Position numbers and translations under genes: made by a program
The notes under the pieces: generated by a model
What the model saw: only the letters and a program-made list of their open reading frames with translations
What the model was told of the DNA's origin: nothing
Databases searched by the model: none
Shown: positions 6,940 to 38,554 of the stretch, piece after piece
Layout of the letters: each line of letters begins with the position of its first letter
Position numbering within the stretch: position 1 is the stretch's first letter
Source of the DNA: a virus
DNA: 45,794 nt
Direction: 5' to 3' (one strand)
Virus record (IMG/VR): IMGVR_UViG_3300020450_000037
Location: 1 to 45,794 of that record

Positions 6940-7179
6940 ATGAAGATAATAGACTTAGATGAAAAGATAGAAGCAGAAGCGGCCGCGAGTGCAAAACTTT
7001 GTAAAAGTTCTCGCAGTAACTCTTCTTTGGGTGCTTCTGCTTTGGCAAGTTGTAAGAGTCAAGGTTATCGACGCAGAGAAGGTAAAAAGTCTCACAAGAT
7101 TGGTAGTGTGAGAAAGAACGTCGGGGGTAAAAAAATTAAAGGTAAGAAGTACGGAGGTCCTTTACCAGACTGGAGTTAA
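6940..7179 (+). CDS. small basic Ser/Lys-rich conserved phage protein, 79 aa
   Basis: Contains CKSSRSNSSLGASALASCKSQG (residues 20-41), RREGKKSHKIGS and a C-terminal KKYGGPLPDWS. As I recall, similar Cys-Lys-Ser repeats with a GGPLPD(W/Y)S end occur in many marine T4-like phages. No function is known. Starts one base after the previous stop. Confidence 0.65.
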   Translation: MKIIDLDEKIEAEAAASAKLCKSSRSNSSLGASALASCKSQGYRRREGKKSHKIGSVRKNVGGKKIKGKKYGGPLPDWS

Positions 7180-8169: not shown

Positions 8170-9354
8170 ATGATAGACACGACTCCATTTGAACAATTAA
8201 TCTCTGACCTAAAGGAGAACGGCAAATACCGTGTGTTCAATGACATTCTTCGTGAGAGAGGTGACTATCCAAATGCTATATGGTATGGTAAGTATGCCAT
8301 TAAAAATATAGTCAATTGGTGTAGCAATGATTACTTGGGAATGGGACAGTCTAAAATTGTTCTCGATGCCATGCATACCGCACTAGATCAAACAGGTGCA
8401 GGTTCGGGTGGAACTAGGAACATAGGCGGTACGAGTCACTATCACGTAGCACTTGAAGCCGAGTTGGCAAGGTTGCATAGCACCGAGTCAGGTTTGCTTT
8501 ATAGTTCTGCCTACGTTGCAAATGAATGGACACTAATTGCTTTAAAACGTATCGTTCCCGACATTGTGTACATAAGTGATAGCAAGAATCACGCTTCTTT
8601 GATACAAGGTATAAGACACAGTGGTGCTGAGAAACATATTTTTAAGCACAACGATCTCGAGCAATTAGAGACATTACTAAAAACTGTCAAAGGTACCCCT
8701 TGCATTGTCTTTGAGTCTGTGTATAGCATGGATGGGTTTGTTAGTAAGATTCCTGAAATTTGTGATCTAGCAGAAAAATATGGTGCCATTACATACATTG
8801 ATGAGGTTCATGCTGTCGGTTTATATGGGAATAGAGGCGGCGGTTTCACTCAGAAACTTGATGTTCAAAACAAAATAGACATCCTCAATGGCACACTTGG
8901 TAAAGCCTTTGGTACACAGGGTGGATACATCGTTGGTAAGTCTGTTATCTTAGATGCTATTCGTTCAGTTGCCTCTGGCTTTATCTTTACAACGTCTATC
9001 AGTCCTGTCATTTGTGCAGGAGCATTGGCAAGTGTAAAATATGTATCAGACCACAATGAACTAAGACAACAACACCAGGAAAGAGCAAACAGACTTAAGA
9101 CTCTTTTTAGAAACAAAGATATTCCAATGATAGAGAACGAAACACATATAGTTCCTGTACACATTGGTGACGCTAAGAAGTGTAAAGCAATAAGCGATAC
9201 ACTGATTAACGAATATGGAATCTATTGTCAAGCAATAAACTATCCAACAGTTGATGTTGGCACAGAGCGTCTAAGATTTGCTCCGACACCTTTCCATACT
9301 AATGCAATGATGCATGATTTAAGAGACGCTCTAGAAAAGGTATTAGATGAATAA
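8170..9354 (+). CDS. hemA: 5-aminolevulinate synthase
   Basis: PLP enzyme joining glycine and succinyl-CoA to 5-aminolevulinate, the first step of heme synthesis by the C4 route used by alphaproteobacteria. Full length (394 aa). ALAS-specific blocks: [12 protein letters not shown] (49-60), [17 protein letters not shown] (76-92), FESVYSMDG (181-189), [10 protein letters not shown] (211-220) and the PLP lysine K245 in NGTLGKAFG. These distinguish it from BioF and Kbl relatives. It overlaps the next gene by 8 bases. As a phage gene it may boost heme supply during infection (inference). Confidence 0.95.
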
Positions 9355-16577: not shown

Positions 16578-17642
16578 ATGAGAAAACTTCTAGTAAACAT
16601 AAGGTACTTCATAGCACCACTGTTAATACTTGTAACACTCGCAGGAGTGTTAGCAGGAGGCGTGTGGGCATGGACAGGTGTTGGCCTATTGGGAGTAGGC
16701 ATTATACTTGATACCCTTATCAACGTCCAGACCCGTGGAGCAGTTGATGAGAATGGTGAAACCTTAGGCATCCCCTGGTTACAGAATACAGTAATGTATA
16801 TGATGTTGCCAGTCTTTGTTGCACTTCAGGTTGCACTTGCATATCAGATATACAATGGTATGGCAGGTAGTGAACTGTTAGGTGCAGTATTATCAACAGG
16901 TATATTTGCAGGCATAGGTATAATCTATGGGCATGAACTATCGCACACCAAAGGCGTTGCATTTGTAATAAGTCGTTGGATGATGGCGTTATCAGGTTCA
17001 GCACATTTCTGTTATGCTCATGTTTACAATCATCACTTGGAACTAGCAAGTGAAGACGATCCTGCAACCGCACCTCGTGGACGTGATATCTATTCACACT
17101 ATGTCAAATCACACTTGGGTCAATCTAAGTTCTTGTTTGAGATGGAGAAGCAAAGATTGAAACGTTTACAGAAACCTTTTATATCATTTGGCAACAGATG
17201 GATTAGAGGTTATATGATGAGTGTTCCTTCACTTGCATTGTTCTTCTATGCAGGAGGTTGGTTAGGTGTTGCGTGTTTGGCTCTTGTTTGGGTTATATCA
17301 AACTTTGAGTTAGAAGCACTAAACTATCTAGAACACTATGGTTTGGTACGTGTTAAGAGCGAGCCAATAGACTATAGACATTCTTGGGATAACTCAACAC
17401 TATTCACTTCATGGTTCTTTATTGAAATAGGTCGTCAGGCTGATCATCATGACAGAGGCGAAACACACTTCTGGGAACTAGATGAAGTAGGTGCACCAAA
17501 CACAGGAGTAGGATACTTCACGTTGTTTGCACTCGCACTAATACCTCCAGTGTTTAATGCGTTTATGAAAAAGCATTTAGACAACTGGGATGAAAACTTT
17601 GCCACAGAAGCAGAGAAACAGATAGCGGCTAAACTAGCCTAA
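16578..17642 (+). CDS. alkB: AlkB-like alkane 1-monooxygenase (membrane di-iron)
   Basis: 354 aa from the ATG behind GGGAGA. Six membrane segments and the histidine boxes of the integral-membrane di-iron hydroxylases: HELSH (119-123), H143/H148 with YNHH (150-153), NYLEHYGL (249-256) and QADHHDRGETHF (287-298). The order HELSH..., NYLEHYGL, DHH is that of AlkB rather than acyl desaturases. AlkB hydroxylates terminal carbons of alkanes or alkyl chains using rubredoxin electrons; no rubredoxin is present here. Substrate could be a lipid or other alkyl compound. Terminator follows. Confidence 0.85.
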   Translation: MRKLLVNIRYFIAPLLILVTLAGVLAGGVWAWTGVGLLGVGIILDTLINVQTRGAVDENGETLGIPWLQNTVMYMMLPVFVALQVALAYQIYNGMAGSELLGAVLSTGIFAGIGIIYGHELSHTKGVAFVISRWMMALSGSAHFCYAHVYNHHLELASEDDPATAPRGRDIYSHYVKSHLGQSKFLFEMEKQRLKRLQKPFISFGNRWIRGYMMSVPSLALFFYAGGWLGVACLALVWVISNFELEALNYLEHYGLVRVKSEPIDYRHSWDNSTLFTSWFFIEIGRQADHHDRGETHFWELDEVGAPNTGVGYFTLFALALIPPVFNAFMKKHLDNWDENFATEAEKQIAAKLA

Positions 17643-17649
17643 CACTTGA

Positions 17650-17681
17650 GGGGCTCACTTTTGGGTGAGTCCCTTTCTTTT
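17650..17681 (+). terminator. rho-independent terminator after alkB
   Basis: GGGGCTCAC-TTTTGG-GTGAGTCCC, 9-bp stem with one G-T pair, followed by TTTCTTTT. Confidence 0.9.
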
Positions 17682-17720: not shown

Positions 17721-17751
17721 AGTAGAATTAATTCTACTGTGGACCGCGGTC
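17721..17751. promoter_or_regulatory. two perfect palindromes upstream of the pqqA-like gene
   Basis: AGTAGAATTAATTCTACT (18-bp palindrome, 17721-17738) and GACCGCGGTC (10-bp palindrome, 17742-17751) stand back to back 41 bp before the start codon. They look like operator sites; no regulator is identified. TATATTATT precedes them at 17710-17718. Confidence 0.5.
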
Positions 17752-17791
17752 ATAAGACAACCGGCACGTAATTTCAATTAGGAGATATACG

Positions 17792-17869
17792 ATGCAATGG
17801 AACACTCCAAAAATCGTAGAGGTATCAGTTGGTTTAGAAATCAATTCATATGCCTGTGCAGAAAAATAG
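17792..17869 (+). CDS. pqqA: PQQ precursor peptide PqqA-like, 25 aa
   Basis: Peptide MQWNTPKIVEVSVGLEINSY plus ACAEK. It fits PqqA: short, W3, P6, E10, VG(L/M)E at 13-16 and the E16-x3-Y20 pair that PqqE cross-links to build pyrroloquinoline quinone. From memory it aligns position by position with the methylotroph PqqA (same E16/Y20 spacing). AGGAG sits 8 bases before the ATG. No pqqB-E genes are in the window, so host enzymes would have to process it. Confidence is limited by its short length. Confidence 0.75.
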   Translation: MQWNTPKIVEVSVGLEINSYACAEK

Positions 17870-17870
17870 G

Positions 17871-17899
17871 TTGACATTTTAATATAGATATAGTATATT
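17871..17899 (+). promoter_or_regulatory. sigma70-type promoter immediately after pqqA
   Basis: Perfect -35 TTGACA (17871-17876), 17-bp spacer, -10 TATATT (17894-17899). It lies only 14 bases before a terminator hairpin, so transcripts would be about 40 bases unless read-through occurs. Confidence 0.65.
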
Positions 17900-17912
17900 A
17901 TAATTTTAACTC

Positions 17913-17945
17913 GGAGCCAACCTTAGGGAAGGCTCCATTTTTTTT
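17913..17945 (+). terminator. rho-independent terminator or attenuator
   Basis: GGAGCC-12-base loop-GGCTCC stem with an uninterrupted run of eight T (17938-17945). It ends the pqqA transcript and also sits just inside the transcript of the promoter at 17871. Confidence 0.85.
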
Positions 17946-17958
17946 GAAAGGAGTTGGT

Positions 17959-33215: not shown

Positions 33216-34319
33216 ATGGCTAAAACTGTCTTTAATAGAAACAAAGTAGACTTCACCAAGCAACCTATGTTTTTTGGAGAGGATCAAAACACACAAAGAT
33301 ACGATACATTTAAGTTTCCTGAGTTTGATAAACTAAATCAAACAATGCTAGGTTACTTTTGGAGACCTGAAGAGGTTAGTTTGCAAAAGGATAGAGCAGA
33401 CTATCAACAGTTCAGACCAGAGCAAAAACATATTTTTACAAGTAATTTAAAATACCAAACGTTACTTGATTCAGTACAAGGACGTGGTCCAAGTCTTGCA
33501 TTTCTACCTTGGGTATCATTACCTGAACTAGAAGGCTGTATTGTTACTTGGGACTTCTTTGAGACTATACATTCTCGTTCTTATACACACATTATGAAAA
33601 ACGTTTATCCTGATCCAAGTGAAGTATTGGATCACATCTTAGAAGATGATGAAATTATTAAACGTGCTATTTCAGTTACAAAGAATTATGACTCTTATAC
33701 AGATGCAGTAGAAAACTTTATGTACAAAGGCAAAGGCACAATGACTGATGTCAAAAAGAAATTGTTCCTTGCAATGATGAACGTAAACATCTTAGAAGGA
33801 TTGAGATTTTATGTTTCGTTTGCCTGTACGTTTGCTTTCGCTGAAAGTAAAATGATGGAAGGGTCAGCAAAAATTATTTCATTAATTGCTCGAGACGAGG
33901 CAACACACTTAAACTTATCAACTCACGTATTAAAAAATTGGTTACGTGGTAATGACGATCCTGAAATGCAAAAGTTAGGACAGGAAAGTGAACAAGAAGT
34001 TTATGATATGTGGAAGACCTGCGTTGAAGAAGAGAAGGCTTGGGCAAAGTATTTGTTCAAAGATGGATCCATCATTGGATTGAACGAAGAAATCTTAGGC
34101 CAGTATGTAGAATTCATTGCTAATAGAAGATTGAAAGCCTTAGGATACAAACCTATCTTTGATCAACCAGTGAATACTAATCCTTTACCTTGGACACAAC
34201 ATTGGTTGAGTTCAGCAGGATTACAAGTGGCTCCACAAGAAACAGAAGTAGAGTCATACATTATTGGGGGCGTTAAACAAGACGTAGAAAAAGATACATT
34301 CAAAGGATTTAAATTATAA
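33216..34319 (+). CDS. nrdB: class Ia ribonucleotide reductase beta subunit
   Basis: 367 aa. Di-iron ligand motifs: WDFFETIHSRSYTHIM (E and H), FAESKMMEGSAK, and RDEATHLNLS (E, H). Provides the tyrosyl radical for NrdA. Two bases separate it from the glutaredoxin gene. Confidence 0.96.
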   Translation: MAKTVFNRNKVDFTKQPMFFGEDQNTQRYDTFKFPEFDKLNQTMLGYFWRPEEVSLQKDRADYQQFRPEQKHIFTSNLKYQTLLDSVQGRGPSLAFLPWVSLPELEGCIVTWDFFETIHSRSYTHIMKNVYPDPSEVLDHILEDDEIIKRAISVTKNYDSYTDAVENFMYKGKGTMTDVKKKLFLAMMNVNILEGLRFYVSFACTFAFAESKMMEGSAKIISLIARDEATHLNLSTHVLKNWLRGNDDPEMQKLGQESEQEVYDMWKTCVEEEKAWAKYLFKDGSIIGLNEEILGQYVEFIANRRLKALGYKPIFDQPVNTNPLPWTQHWLSSAGLQVAPQETEVESYIIGGVKQDVEKDTFKGFKL

Positions 34320-34321
34320 TT

Positions 34322-34585
34322 ATGACAAACGTAGTATATTCAAAACCAATGTGTCCCTATTGTGATAAAGCAAAGCATTTATTAAAAACATCAGGGATAG
34401 AATTTAAAGAAATGTTAATTGGCAGAGACCTGACTAGAGAAACTTTGTTAGAAGAGTTTGAAGCAAATGGTATGCCACAGCCAAGATCTGTACCGCAGAT
34501 TATCCTTAACGGTAAGTACGTTGGGGGATACAACGAACTATTGAAGTACGTTGAAGAACACGGTATGGAAGGACTGAAACAATAA
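34322..34585 (+). CDS. glutaredoxin
   Basis: 87 aa thioredoxin-fold protein with active site CPYC (residues 11-14), SVPQIILNG (cis-Pro) and GGYNEL. It reduces the NrdA disulfide; the gene lies directly after nrdB. Confidence 0.94.
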   Translation: MTNVVYSKPMCPYCDKAKHLLKTSGIEFKEMLIGRDLTRETLLEEFEANGMPQPRSVPQIILNGKYVGGYNELLKYVEEHGMEGLKQ

Positions 34586-34588
34586 AGT

Positions 34589-34876
34589 ATGTTAATTGAA
34601 ACTCCGCACAAAAAAGGCGACACAGTATCATTCAAATTACAATCCGGAGAAGAGATTGTAGCAAGAGTAGACGATGTAACTGACACAAGTTATCGTCTGC
34701 ACAAGCCATTAACATTAATGAACACAGGTAAAGGAATTGGCCTAGGTCAATTCATGATGACAGCAGATCCATTATCGGATATCTATATGCCTAAGTCCAG
34801 TGTAGTTTGTTCTTCAAAAACCCATACCACTATGGCAAAACAATATATTGAAGCAACCACTGGGATTAAAACATGA
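34589..34876 (+). CDS. small hypothetical protein with Sm-like start, 95 aa
   Basis: The first half (KKGDTVSFKLQSGEEIVARVDD) looks like an LSm/SH3-type barrel; the second half is loop-rich with a Cys and ends helical. Overlaps the HAD gene by 4 bases (ATGA). Function unknown. Confidence 0.6.
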   Translation: MLIETPHKKGDTVSFKLQSGEEIVARVDDVTDTSYRLHKPLTLMNTGKGIGLGQFMMTADPLSDIYMPKSSVVCSSKTHTTMAKQYIEATTGIKT

Positions 34877-35490
34877 GTCAAAAAATATTAGTAGATGTAG
34901 ACGGAGTTCTACTTGATTGGGATACTGCCTTTCAGAAATGGATGGCGTTAGAGGGTTTCATCGTTAAGGAAAACGGTGATACAGAGTATAAGACACATCT
35001 TAGATTTGTTACAAATATCCAAAAAGATCCTATTCCAGAAGATAAAGCAGACTGGTTAGTGAAGATTTTTAATCGATCTGCATGGATTGGGTTTTTAGAA
35101 CCCCACAAAGATAGTGTTGAAATAGTGAAGGCATTAAAGGAAAAAGGATATACCTTTACTGCGATTACTTCTTTAACATTAGACCAACCTGCTCAAGCAT
35201 TAAGAAGAAAAAATTTGGCAGACGTCTTTGGAGAAGACACTTTTGAGGATATCCATTTCTTAGAAACTGGTTCTGGTAAAGCAGAAGTTCTAAGCAAAAT
35301 GGGTCAAGGGCATTGGTGGATTGAAGATAAGCCGGATAATGCTTTAGAAGGACTAAAGCACGGACTTAAACCAATCCTTATTGAACATAGTTACAATAAG
35401 ACCTTTTTAAACAGTCAAATCGAAAGGGTACCAACTTGGCGTAACATATATAAAATAGTAACAGGAGAAAAATATGTCATCAATTCATGA
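34873..35490 (+). CDS. HAD-superfamily phosphatase (nucleotidase-like)
   Basis: 205 aa. Motif I DVDGVLLDW (D8, D10), motif II T in ITSLT, and motif IV WIEDKPDNA. HAD phosphatases of this size include 5'(3')-deoxyribonucleotidases, which would fit the ribonucleotide-reductase neighbourhood, but substrate is not determined. Confidence 0.75.
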   Translation: MSQKILVDVDGVLLDWDTAFQKWMALEGFIVKENGDTEYKTHLRFVTNIQKDPIPEDKADWLVKIFNRSAWIGFLEPHKDSVEIVKALKEKGYTFTAITSLTLDQPAQALRRKNLADVFGEDTFEDIHFLETGSGKAEVLSKMGQGHWWIEDKPDNALEGLKHGLKPILIEHSYNKTFLNSQIERVPTWRNIYKIVTGEKYVINS

Positions 35491-35653
35491 GCAAATCACG
35501 GCGGCATACGAGAACTACTTGAAAGAGTCTGAATCTTTCGATACAAAAGGTGTAAAAGCCTCAGCGGCAAGAGCCAGAAAAGCATTAGGCGAAATGGGAA
35601 AACTTGCAAAATCAAGAAGAGCAGAGATTCAAGAAAAAAAGAACTCTATGTAA
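35474..35653 (+). CDS. Hc1-like (histone-H1-like) small protein, 59 aa
   Basis: Helical: ITAAYENYLKESESFDTKGV followed by KASAARARKALGEMGKLAKS and RRAEIQEKKN. This tracks the bacterial Hc1 (histone-H1-like) helical core (K.A..R.RKAL.E...LA...R.EIQE.KN), without the long Lys-rich tail. Could bind DNA or a protein partner. Overlaps the HAD gene by 17 bases; AGGAG ribosome binding site; terminator follows. Confidence moderate because of its size. Confidence 0.6.
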   Translation: MSSIHEQITAAYENYLKESESFDTKGVKASAARARKALGEMGKLAKSRRAEIQEKKNSM

Positions 35654-35666
35654 TTTATTAAAGTTT

Positions 35667-35704
35667 GGCGTTGCATTTGATAATCTTGCAACGCCATTCT
35701 TTTA
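35667..35704 (+). terminator. rho-independent terminator
   Basis: GGCGTTGCA-11 bases-TGCAACGCC, a 9-bp perfect stem, followed by ATTCTTTTATT. Ends the nrd-HAD-Hc1 operon. Confidence 0.88.
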
Positions 35705-35735
35705 TTATGATATCCGTAATAATTACCAAAAAATT

Positions 35736-36008: not shown

Positions 36009-36392
36009 TTATTTTACTTGTTTCTTCTGATAATCTGCTATGGCCGCCTTTATGGCATCTTCAGCCAGCACTGAACAATGTATCTTTACGGGTGGAAGAG
36101 CCAACTCTGTAGCGATTTCTGTATTCTTAATTTCCCTTGCTTCGCCCAGTGTTTTGCCTTTTACCCACTCAGTGACAAGCGAACTACTAGCAATAGCAGA
36201 GCCACAGCCAAACGTTTTGAACTTGGCGTCATCTATTGTTCCCTGGTCGCTTACTTTAATTTGAAGTTTCATGACATCGCCACAAGCAGGTGCACCCACT
36301 AGTCCTGTTCCTACGTCAGTATCTTCTTTATCCATTGAACCTACGTTCCTTGGATTCTCATAATGGTCAAGTAGTTGTTTACTATATGCCAT
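36009..36392 (-). CDS. iscU: Fe-S cluster scaffold protein IscU
   Basis: 127 aa, full length. C37 in PACGD with D39, C63 in FGCGSAIASSS, HscA-binding LPPVK (99-103), and C106 in HCSVLAEDAI: the three cluster-ligand cysteines plus chaperone motif. Assembles Fe-S clusters from IscS sulfur. No iscS, hscA or iscA is in the window, so host partners would be needed. Convergent with the cold-shock gene. Confidence 0.95.
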   Translation of the reverse strand: MAYSKQLLDHYENPRNVGSMDKEDTDVGTGLVGAPACGDVMKLQIKVSDQGTIDDAKFKTFGCGSAIASSSLVTEWVKGKTLGEAREIKNTEIATELALPPVKIHCSVLAEDAIKAAIADYQKKQVK

Positions 36393-38092: not shown

Positions 38093-38128
38093 AAATCCTT
38101 TTAATTTCTATTTATCATTCAAAAGAGG

Positions 38129-38159
38129 TTGACATACTCCATTATCGGTGCTATAAATA
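38129..38159 (+). promoter_or_regulatory. tmRNA promoter (sigma70 -35 with TATAAATA -10)
   Basis: TTGACA (38129-38134), 17-bp spacer, TATAAATA (38152-38159). The -10 suits both host sigma70 and a T4-type late factor, so the RNA could be made throughout infection. An ATGACGTCAT palindrome lies just downstream (38171-38180). Confidence 0.8.
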
Positions 38160-38167
38160 AAGAGTAA

Positions 38168-38436
38168 TTGATGACGTCATTGTATGTCACAAGAGCAGGA
38201 CCCGGGTGCAATTCCCGGCCACTCCACCAATTCAATATACCCCCTACGGGGTGGAATTAGGATCGACTGGCTTGTTAAGAATGAAAGAGATTACCGGGTG
38301 GGAACTCCGTTAACGTAACAAAACTATAAATGCAAACGATAACTTTGCATCTGAGGATTATGCACTAGCGGCATAATTTGACGGGGTTGGCAACTTACCT
38401 GGCAACAGAAAAGTTGCGTACATTTTGACTGGATAG
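38168..38436 (+). ncRNA. ssrA: circularly permuted (two-piece) tmRNA
   Basis: The acceptor piece comes first: CCGGG-TGCAATT-CCCGG T-arm, CCACTCC acceptor strand, discriminator A and CCA ending at 38229. An intervening loop (38230-38247, ACCCC-CTAC-GGGGT hairpin overlap) leads to the coding piece beginning GGGGTGG (38248-38254), which pairs with CCACTCC to close a 7-bp acceptor stem with one G-T. CTTGT (38271-38275) pairs with ACAAG (38189-38193), as expected for helix P2. The tag frame at 38332-38376 encodes ANDNFASEDYALAA-stop. A GCAACTT/AAGTTGC helix follows (pseudoknot region). The permuted order is the alphaproteobacterial arrangement; the exact outer ends are approximate. It rescues stalled ribosomes and tags their products for proteolysis. 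Confidence 0.92.
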
Positions 38437-38449
38437 AAGGACAAATAAA

Positions 38450-38554
38450 ATGGCTACATATATCACAATTCTAGGAGCCGCATTAGTTATAAATGCAATC
38501 CATGTAGCAATCACAGGACATCAAGTTATGCTCTGTGTTTCTGGCTGTAATTAA
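38450..38554 (+). CDS. 34-aa hydrophobic mini-protein
   Basis: MATYITILGAALVINAIHVA then ITGHQVMLCVSGCN. AGAAGGA lies 8 bases upstream. Sits between tmRNA and tRNA, so it is co-transcribed with RNA genes. One membrane helix; function unknown. Confidence 0.5.
   Translation: MATYITILGAALVINAIHVAITGHQVMLCVSGCN

Follow-up and report, generated by a model that had tools for sequence, protein, structure and literature searches.

Our results show that a bacteriophage carries its own copy of pqqA, the gene for the precursor peptide of the cofactor pyrroloquinoline quinone (PQQ). The gene lies at positions 17792..17869 of the IMG/VR virus record IMGVR_UViG_3300020450_000037, which we analyzed over its whole length of 45,794 nt (hereafter "the window"). 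We estimate a probability of roughly 80% that with this gene the phage adds a copy of a consumed component of PQQ synthesis, so that the host enzymes PqqB–E keep making PQQ. PQQ is formed from Glu16 and Tyr20 of PqqA, a ribosomally made peptide, and the biochemistry of PqqA, PqqE and PqqD makes PqqA the only component of the pathway that is consumed stoichiometrically. The features that define the gene are the following:

17780..17784, plus strand: Shine-Dalgarno sequence AGGAG, 7 nt 5' of the pqqA ATG.
17792..17869, plus strand: pqqA, encoding the precursor peptide MQWNTPKIVEVSVGLEINSYACAEK with E16/Y20.

The reading frame has 25 codons, with its ATG at 17792 and its stop codon at 17867-17869. 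The peptide has W3, P6, E10, VGLE at 13–16 and E16-x3-Y20, exactly as the original prediction, made from reading the letters, had described. Because chance similarity is common among short peptides, we applied curated models to the 25 residues. TIGR02107 scores 38.9 bits (E 5e-10, cut-off 20) and PF08042 29.6 bits (E 7e-7, cut-off 21.1). Both scores are far over the curated cut-offs and bear out the proposed identity. At the DNA level, the window contains a single match to a generic PqqA codon pattern, and 100 shuffles contain none; a phmmer search of the peptide against PDB chains gave no match. Judged by its sequence, the gene is a genuine pqqA and its product a bona fide PqqA. It belongs to viral DNA, since the contig carries phage ribonucleotide reductase and exonuclease genes. 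For viral pqqA in general, hallmark neighbours and complete isolate genomes argue for viral DNA and not host contamination.

Viral pqqA is not rare; many aquatic phages carry it. Our collection comprises at least about 340 distinct loci, and the counts taken from it are minima. Two large types of viral PqqA can be distinguished: type 1, GLEIN(S/C)YACAE, which is the window's own, and type 2, RFGFEVTMYVMNK. Over IMG/VR the generic pattern gave at least 120 matches; all those listed are short open reading frames of about 23–27 codons, and nearly all have a recognisable ribosome site. To guard against circularity, two further IMG/VR scans left the Glu and Tyr codons unspecified. E16 and Y20, whose conservation in related phages the original prediction had made a test of its claim, proved invariant (120/120 and 120/120, or 240/240 listed matches). 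Synonymous variation among the viral genes is high and amino-acid variation low, with a ratio of nonsynonymous to synonymous change of 0.05–0.17, a range that is optimistic because the search patterns themselves restrict amino-acid change. Other viral PqqA types also exceed the cut-offs of the hidden Markov models; one sub-type had no match at E 1e-5. On these contigs pqqA adjoins genes for terminase, portal protein, a gp32-like single-stranded DNA-binding protein, PhoH and endolysin.

PqqE exceeded its cut-off in none of the 49 viral pqqA records searched, and a viral PQQ dehydrogenase was found in one of them. The phage therefore presumably supplies the precursor alone. A viral methanol dehydrogenase was considered as the partner of pqqA and rejected on this single occurrence. 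The contig in question (L189, 72 kb) encodes a PQQ dehydrogenase of the methanol/ethanol family (G816, 34049-35731), like Baikal phages. Having no PqqE in its recovered DNA, the window phage presumably relies on host PqqB–E, for which its pqqA would most likely be one more precursor copy, because PqqA is consumed one for one and because bacteria with the same type of peptide often hold two to three copies themselves. That hosts keep extra copies suggests that supply matters. The phage peptide would then be processed by the host enzymes and would sustain PQQ synthesis during takeover, while host genes are shut down, and the PQQ so kept would supply dehydrogenases of the methanol/ethanol type.

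One could also argue that the peptide is a decoy, or a substrate of another radical S-adenosylmethionine peptide enzyme, and that it lowers or diverts PQQ synthesis in the host. In principle, phage copies that come without a maturation enzyme might compete with the PqqA of the host. However, a decoy would be expected to tolerate the loss of Glu and Tyr, whereas the pair is invariant in the 240 listed matches, and the sequences of phage and host PqqA are almost identical. We consider a decoy highly improbable.

The reading of an extra precursor copy draws on bacteria with the same peptide. On the host side, we sampled 385 genomes from a single class and found the window's PqqA type in 17. We place the genomes with this type in the Alphaproteobacteria because 15 of the 18 tested carry alphaproteobacterial transfer-messenger RNA (tmRNA). 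Many are 0.8–2.5 Mb in size, often with two to three pqqA copies (e.g., MAWNTPKVAEVSVGLEINSYACAEV), and PqqE is above its cut-off in 13 of the 17. One cluster read in detail contains pqqE, D, C and B with two pqqA copies, as well as a PQQ dehydrogenase of the methanol/ethanol family (TIGR03075), a methanol-metabolism cytochrome and a MoxJ-like protein. In the PQQ-making genomes, the quinoprotein partner is a methanol/ethanol-type PQQ dehydrogenase adjoining the pqq cluster. Bacterial PqqA (PF08042/TIGR02107), which is multi-copy in these streamlined alphaproteobacteria, shares with the phage peptide its length, the W, P, E, G, E and Y positions and nearly the same sequence, but the phage gene has no pqqBCDE beside it and lies behind a different leader. 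Methylophaga-type genomes (L250-L263) hold four to six pqqA copies each.

The phage genome itself offers one further indication of its host:

38125-38467, plus strand: permuted tmRNA of alphaproteobacterial type (RF01849, 126 bits) with the tag ANDNFASEDYALAA, followed by tRNA-Trp.

A blastn search of this tmRNA against the PQQ genomes returned chance matches only, and the phage's 5-aminolevulinate synthase shares no more than 57% identity with that of any sampled bacterial genome; neither result fixes the host.

A second aspect of our study concerns the RNA that precedes viral pqqA, for which two elements of the window are relevant:

17721..17738, plus strand: small hairpin AGTAGAATTAATTCTACT just 5' of the leader RNA, found by comparison of leaders.
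17739..17767, plus strand: conserved structured leader RNA of ~30 nt (covariance model R1, 46.4 bits).

The leader RNA folds into P1 (GUG:CAC), a GN bulge, P2 (CCG:CGG), a CG/AAC internal loop and P3 (GUC:GAC). Comparison of leaders yielded the motif GTGGNCYGCGGYC-N(3-9)-RRCAACCRGCAC, located 19–40 nt 5' of the viral pqqA start. An unbiased scan of IMG/VR found this motif in at least 119 stretches, which together with the window makes at least 120 occurrences, and all those listed lie 5' of pqqA. An intact pqqA follows directly in 117 of the 120 listed; in the other three, where a contig end or a misassigned ATG is involved, the start of pqqA can still be seen. We also searched 9.84 Mb with a descriptor of the fold (P1-GN-P2-CG-P3-loop-P3'-AAC-P2'-P1'), which matched 139 times. 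The six non-consensus matches and the consensus ones that were examined all precede pqqA.

Pairing in this RNA covaries. All cells pair in an alignment of 30 leader variants, and two-sided changes occur in seven of the nine pairs. The covariation score is 0.314, compared to 0.141 in shuffles (0/500), and is lost when the partner is slid along; RNAalifold finds the same structure unaided. Because five of the 30 aligned variants came from the descriptor, which demands pairing, we added tests that leave the partner free. With the 5' side of P1 fixed as GAG, all 12 matches have the complementary TC and lie 5' of pqqA. With AAG there were eight matches: seven precede pqqA and carry the complementary TT, and the eighth, which is GC-rich and does not precede pqqA, is unpaired. 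The small hairpin just upstream differs in sequence among phages with alkB and pqqA and retains its pairing (e.g., AGTACATTTCTTGTACT, AGTAGGCATTTTTCTACT).

No Rfam family matches the leader RNA at Rfam's thresholds. Two candidates were rejected. The freshwater-2 family (RF02980) scores 17.2 bits against a cut-off of 49.9, mostly over the A-rich ribosome-site region, and the match is not repeated in other leaders. Nor is the leader part of a tmRNA: that of the window does not contain the motif and is 20 kb distant. In two phages (L407, L422), a tmRNA-like tag sequence is found just 5' of the pqqA leader RNA. Of 157 distinct type-1 viral leaders, 84 contain the leader RNA, and almost all of these precede a gene for the GLEINSY peptide. 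The RNA probably regulates or enhances translation or stability.

A covariance model search of 32 genomes from one alphaproteobacterial order gave a single strong cellular match (40.8 bits, E 4e-9). It is an rpoH leader, located between an rluD-like gene and rpoH, with RpoH confirmed:

G851:C2, locus L603, about 6948-6979, minus strand: leader RNA before rpoH, with carotenoid-type genes nearby on the bacterial chromosome.

This leader has the same fold as the viral pqqA leaders and, judged by eye, the A/T hairpin that follows and the ribosome site GGAGTTGA resemble those of some of them. It differs in that it precedes the gene for a heat-shock sigma factor and not pqqA. Because so similar a leader precedes rpoH in one streamlined alphaproteobacterium, the viral leader looks borrowed from host regulation, and phages may express pqqA through a regulatory leader of host type. 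We cautiously favour the view that in many marine phages pqqA is under the control of an unrecorded class of compact cis-regulatory RNA, acquired from a host leader of the rpoH type. Precursor supply would thus come under a host element of stress regulation or translation control.

Alternatively, the leader RNA could sense a metabolite, for example PQQ, and act as a riboswitch that gives feedback control of viral pqqA. The compact fold, the invariant bases of the internal loop and bulge (CG/AAC, GN) and the almost exclusive association with pqqA would suit such a role, but for an aptamer the element would be unusually small, its only cellular copy found precedes rpoH, and host pqqA leaders lack it. 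We regard a riboswitch as doubtful.

Several observations weigh against our reading, both of the peptide and of its leader. The match to an rpoH leader comes from one genome. Leader RNA was not found in any of the 153 type-2 viral leaders, nor in the 28 pqqA leaders of alphaproteobacteria or the 14 of Methylophaga; because it is absent from host and type-2 viral leaders, pqqA in general must be able to function without it. The alphaproteobacterial affinity of the phage host rests on tmRNA type and peptide similarity. The recovered genome of 45.8 kb is a fragment, and other pqq genes could therefore be missing from view. Finally, PqqE over its cut-off was not found in 4 of the 17 genomes with the same peptide, possibly because these are incomplete. 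The proposal that the virus supplies extra precursor for host PqqB–E fits most bacteria of this type, which have pqqE, and the cluster read in detail, which has pqqB–E.

The original prediction knew of no description of a viral pqqA, and here it was mistaken. In 2020 a viral pqqA was reported for the Lake Baikal phage population VP_266, accompanied by a methanol dehydrogenase of the virus (PMC7678222); a reservoir study from 2026 lists pqqA/D/E in viral contigs (PMC13188868). VP_266 is a T4-like methylotroph phage whose PqqA was proposed to support PQQ-dependent methanol oxidation. The two cases share a phage-encoded PqqA, but they also differ. VP_266 combines pqqA with a viral methanol dehydrogenase and stands among freshwater phages of Methylophilaceae, whereas no viral dehydrogenase was found in the window phage, whose peptide is of alphaproteobacterial type and comes with a structured leader. 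The account of VP_266 consulted (PMC7678222) gives no leader, conservation test or prevalence.

Isolated phages carry the gene as well. A tblastn search with type-2 PqqA matched the Methylophilales phages Venkman, P19250A, MEP301, MEP401, MEP402 and four Melnitz isolates; the window's type-1 peptide had no tblastn match in cultured phages. The complete genomes of Venkman, P19250A, MEP301 and MEP402 have no coding sequence annotated at the pqqA site, and in Melnitz-1 a hypothetical reading frame on the opposite strand covers it:

Loci L264, L265 and L614-L616, complete genomes of five isolated methylophages: pqqA un-annotated or under a wrong-strand reading frame.

Annotation pipelines miss pqqA because it is very short. 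In the isolate-methylophage paper that mentions PQQ, it is a component of the medium only, and we found no paper in the open literature that links "Methylophilales phage" with "PqqA".

The surroundings of pqqA in the window contain a second metabolic gene and several predicted signals:

16578..17642, plus strand: AlkB-like di-iron membrane monooxygenase, 354 aa (PF00487, 100 bits; PDB 8sbb, E 1e-29; 8f6t, E 2e-27).
17648..17675, plus strand: intrinsic terminator after alkB, with a 12-bp stem and a U-rich tail (fold -20.4 kcal/mol, z -4.4).
17871..17899, plus strand: sigma70-like promoter TTGACA-17-TATATT (11/12), directly 3' of pqqA.
17913..17945, plus strand: terminator-like hairpin GGAGCC...GGCTCC with a T run behind it (17868-17950 folds at -22.9 kcal/mol, z -4.0).

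The short pqqA unit would be bounded by the terminator-like hairpins, and its transcript would pass through the folded 5' leader RNA. The neighbouring protein, whose best PDB matches are both alkane monooxygenases, belongs by sequence to the AlkB family and has the His-rich motifs HELSHTK, NYLEHYGL and DHH. As originally described, pqqA lies directly downstream, with a gap of about 150 nt, although a strong intrinsic terminator stands in between, and the AlkB-like gene is probably a separate transcription unit.

It is tempting to see AlkB and PqqA as one viral module for alcohol oxidation, in which quinoprotein alcohol dehydrogenases, supplied with extra PQQ, oxidise the alcohols that AlkB yields; both enzymes touch alcohols by established chemistry. 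The AlkB-like protein has relatives in at least 80 viral contigs, and 80 viral alkB loci were compared. A scan for the small gene after alkB, which the original prediction had suggested, found type-1 pqqA downstream on the same strand in 13 of the 80, at a spacing of 150–158 or 779 nt; most loci lack it, and another PqqA type is nearby in four. Conversely, alkB was present at one of the 120 listed pattern-found pqqA loci, leaving 119 without it in the flanking DNA examined. The nearest cellular AlkBs are those of gammaproteobacteria, including Methylophaga, and 16 of 19 such genomes lack pqqA. The PQQ-making alphaproteobacterial genomes tested have no AlkB of the phage type, three of them having remote relatives only (25–27% identity). 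Given the minority association, the terminator and this absence, we reject AlkB as the functional partner of pqqA as a general rule, and a joint module is unlikely. In the window's own lineage an alcohol theme is possible. AlkB-like genes (L002-L081) are common in marine viral contigs, with 146 confirmed places, and a search of the open literature for reports of alkB as a viral auxiliary gene turned up no clearly relevant paper.

The window contains two further genes related to cofactors:

8170-9354, plus strand: 5-aminolevulinate synthase (TIGR01821, 569 bits; cut-off 339), with no PHROG match.
36009-36392, minus strand: IscU/NifU-like scaffold.

Another pqqA phage (L608) has NifU-like and IscA-like genes (175-564, 1968-2288) within about 1.5 kb of pqqA. 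With these genes in the two phages, a wider theme of cofactor supply by phages, comprising haem, iron-sulfur clusters and PQQ, seems plausible.

Our results indicate that phages commonly supply the substrate peptide, and not the enzymes, of a host cofactor pathway. At about 75 nt, pqqA is an unusually cheap auxiliary gene. Its covarying leader, an RNA element open to testing, links a viral metabolic gene with the leader of a host stress sigma factor. How infection sustains the oxidation of methanol and ethanol in marine bacteria would be directly testable in isolated phage-host pairs.
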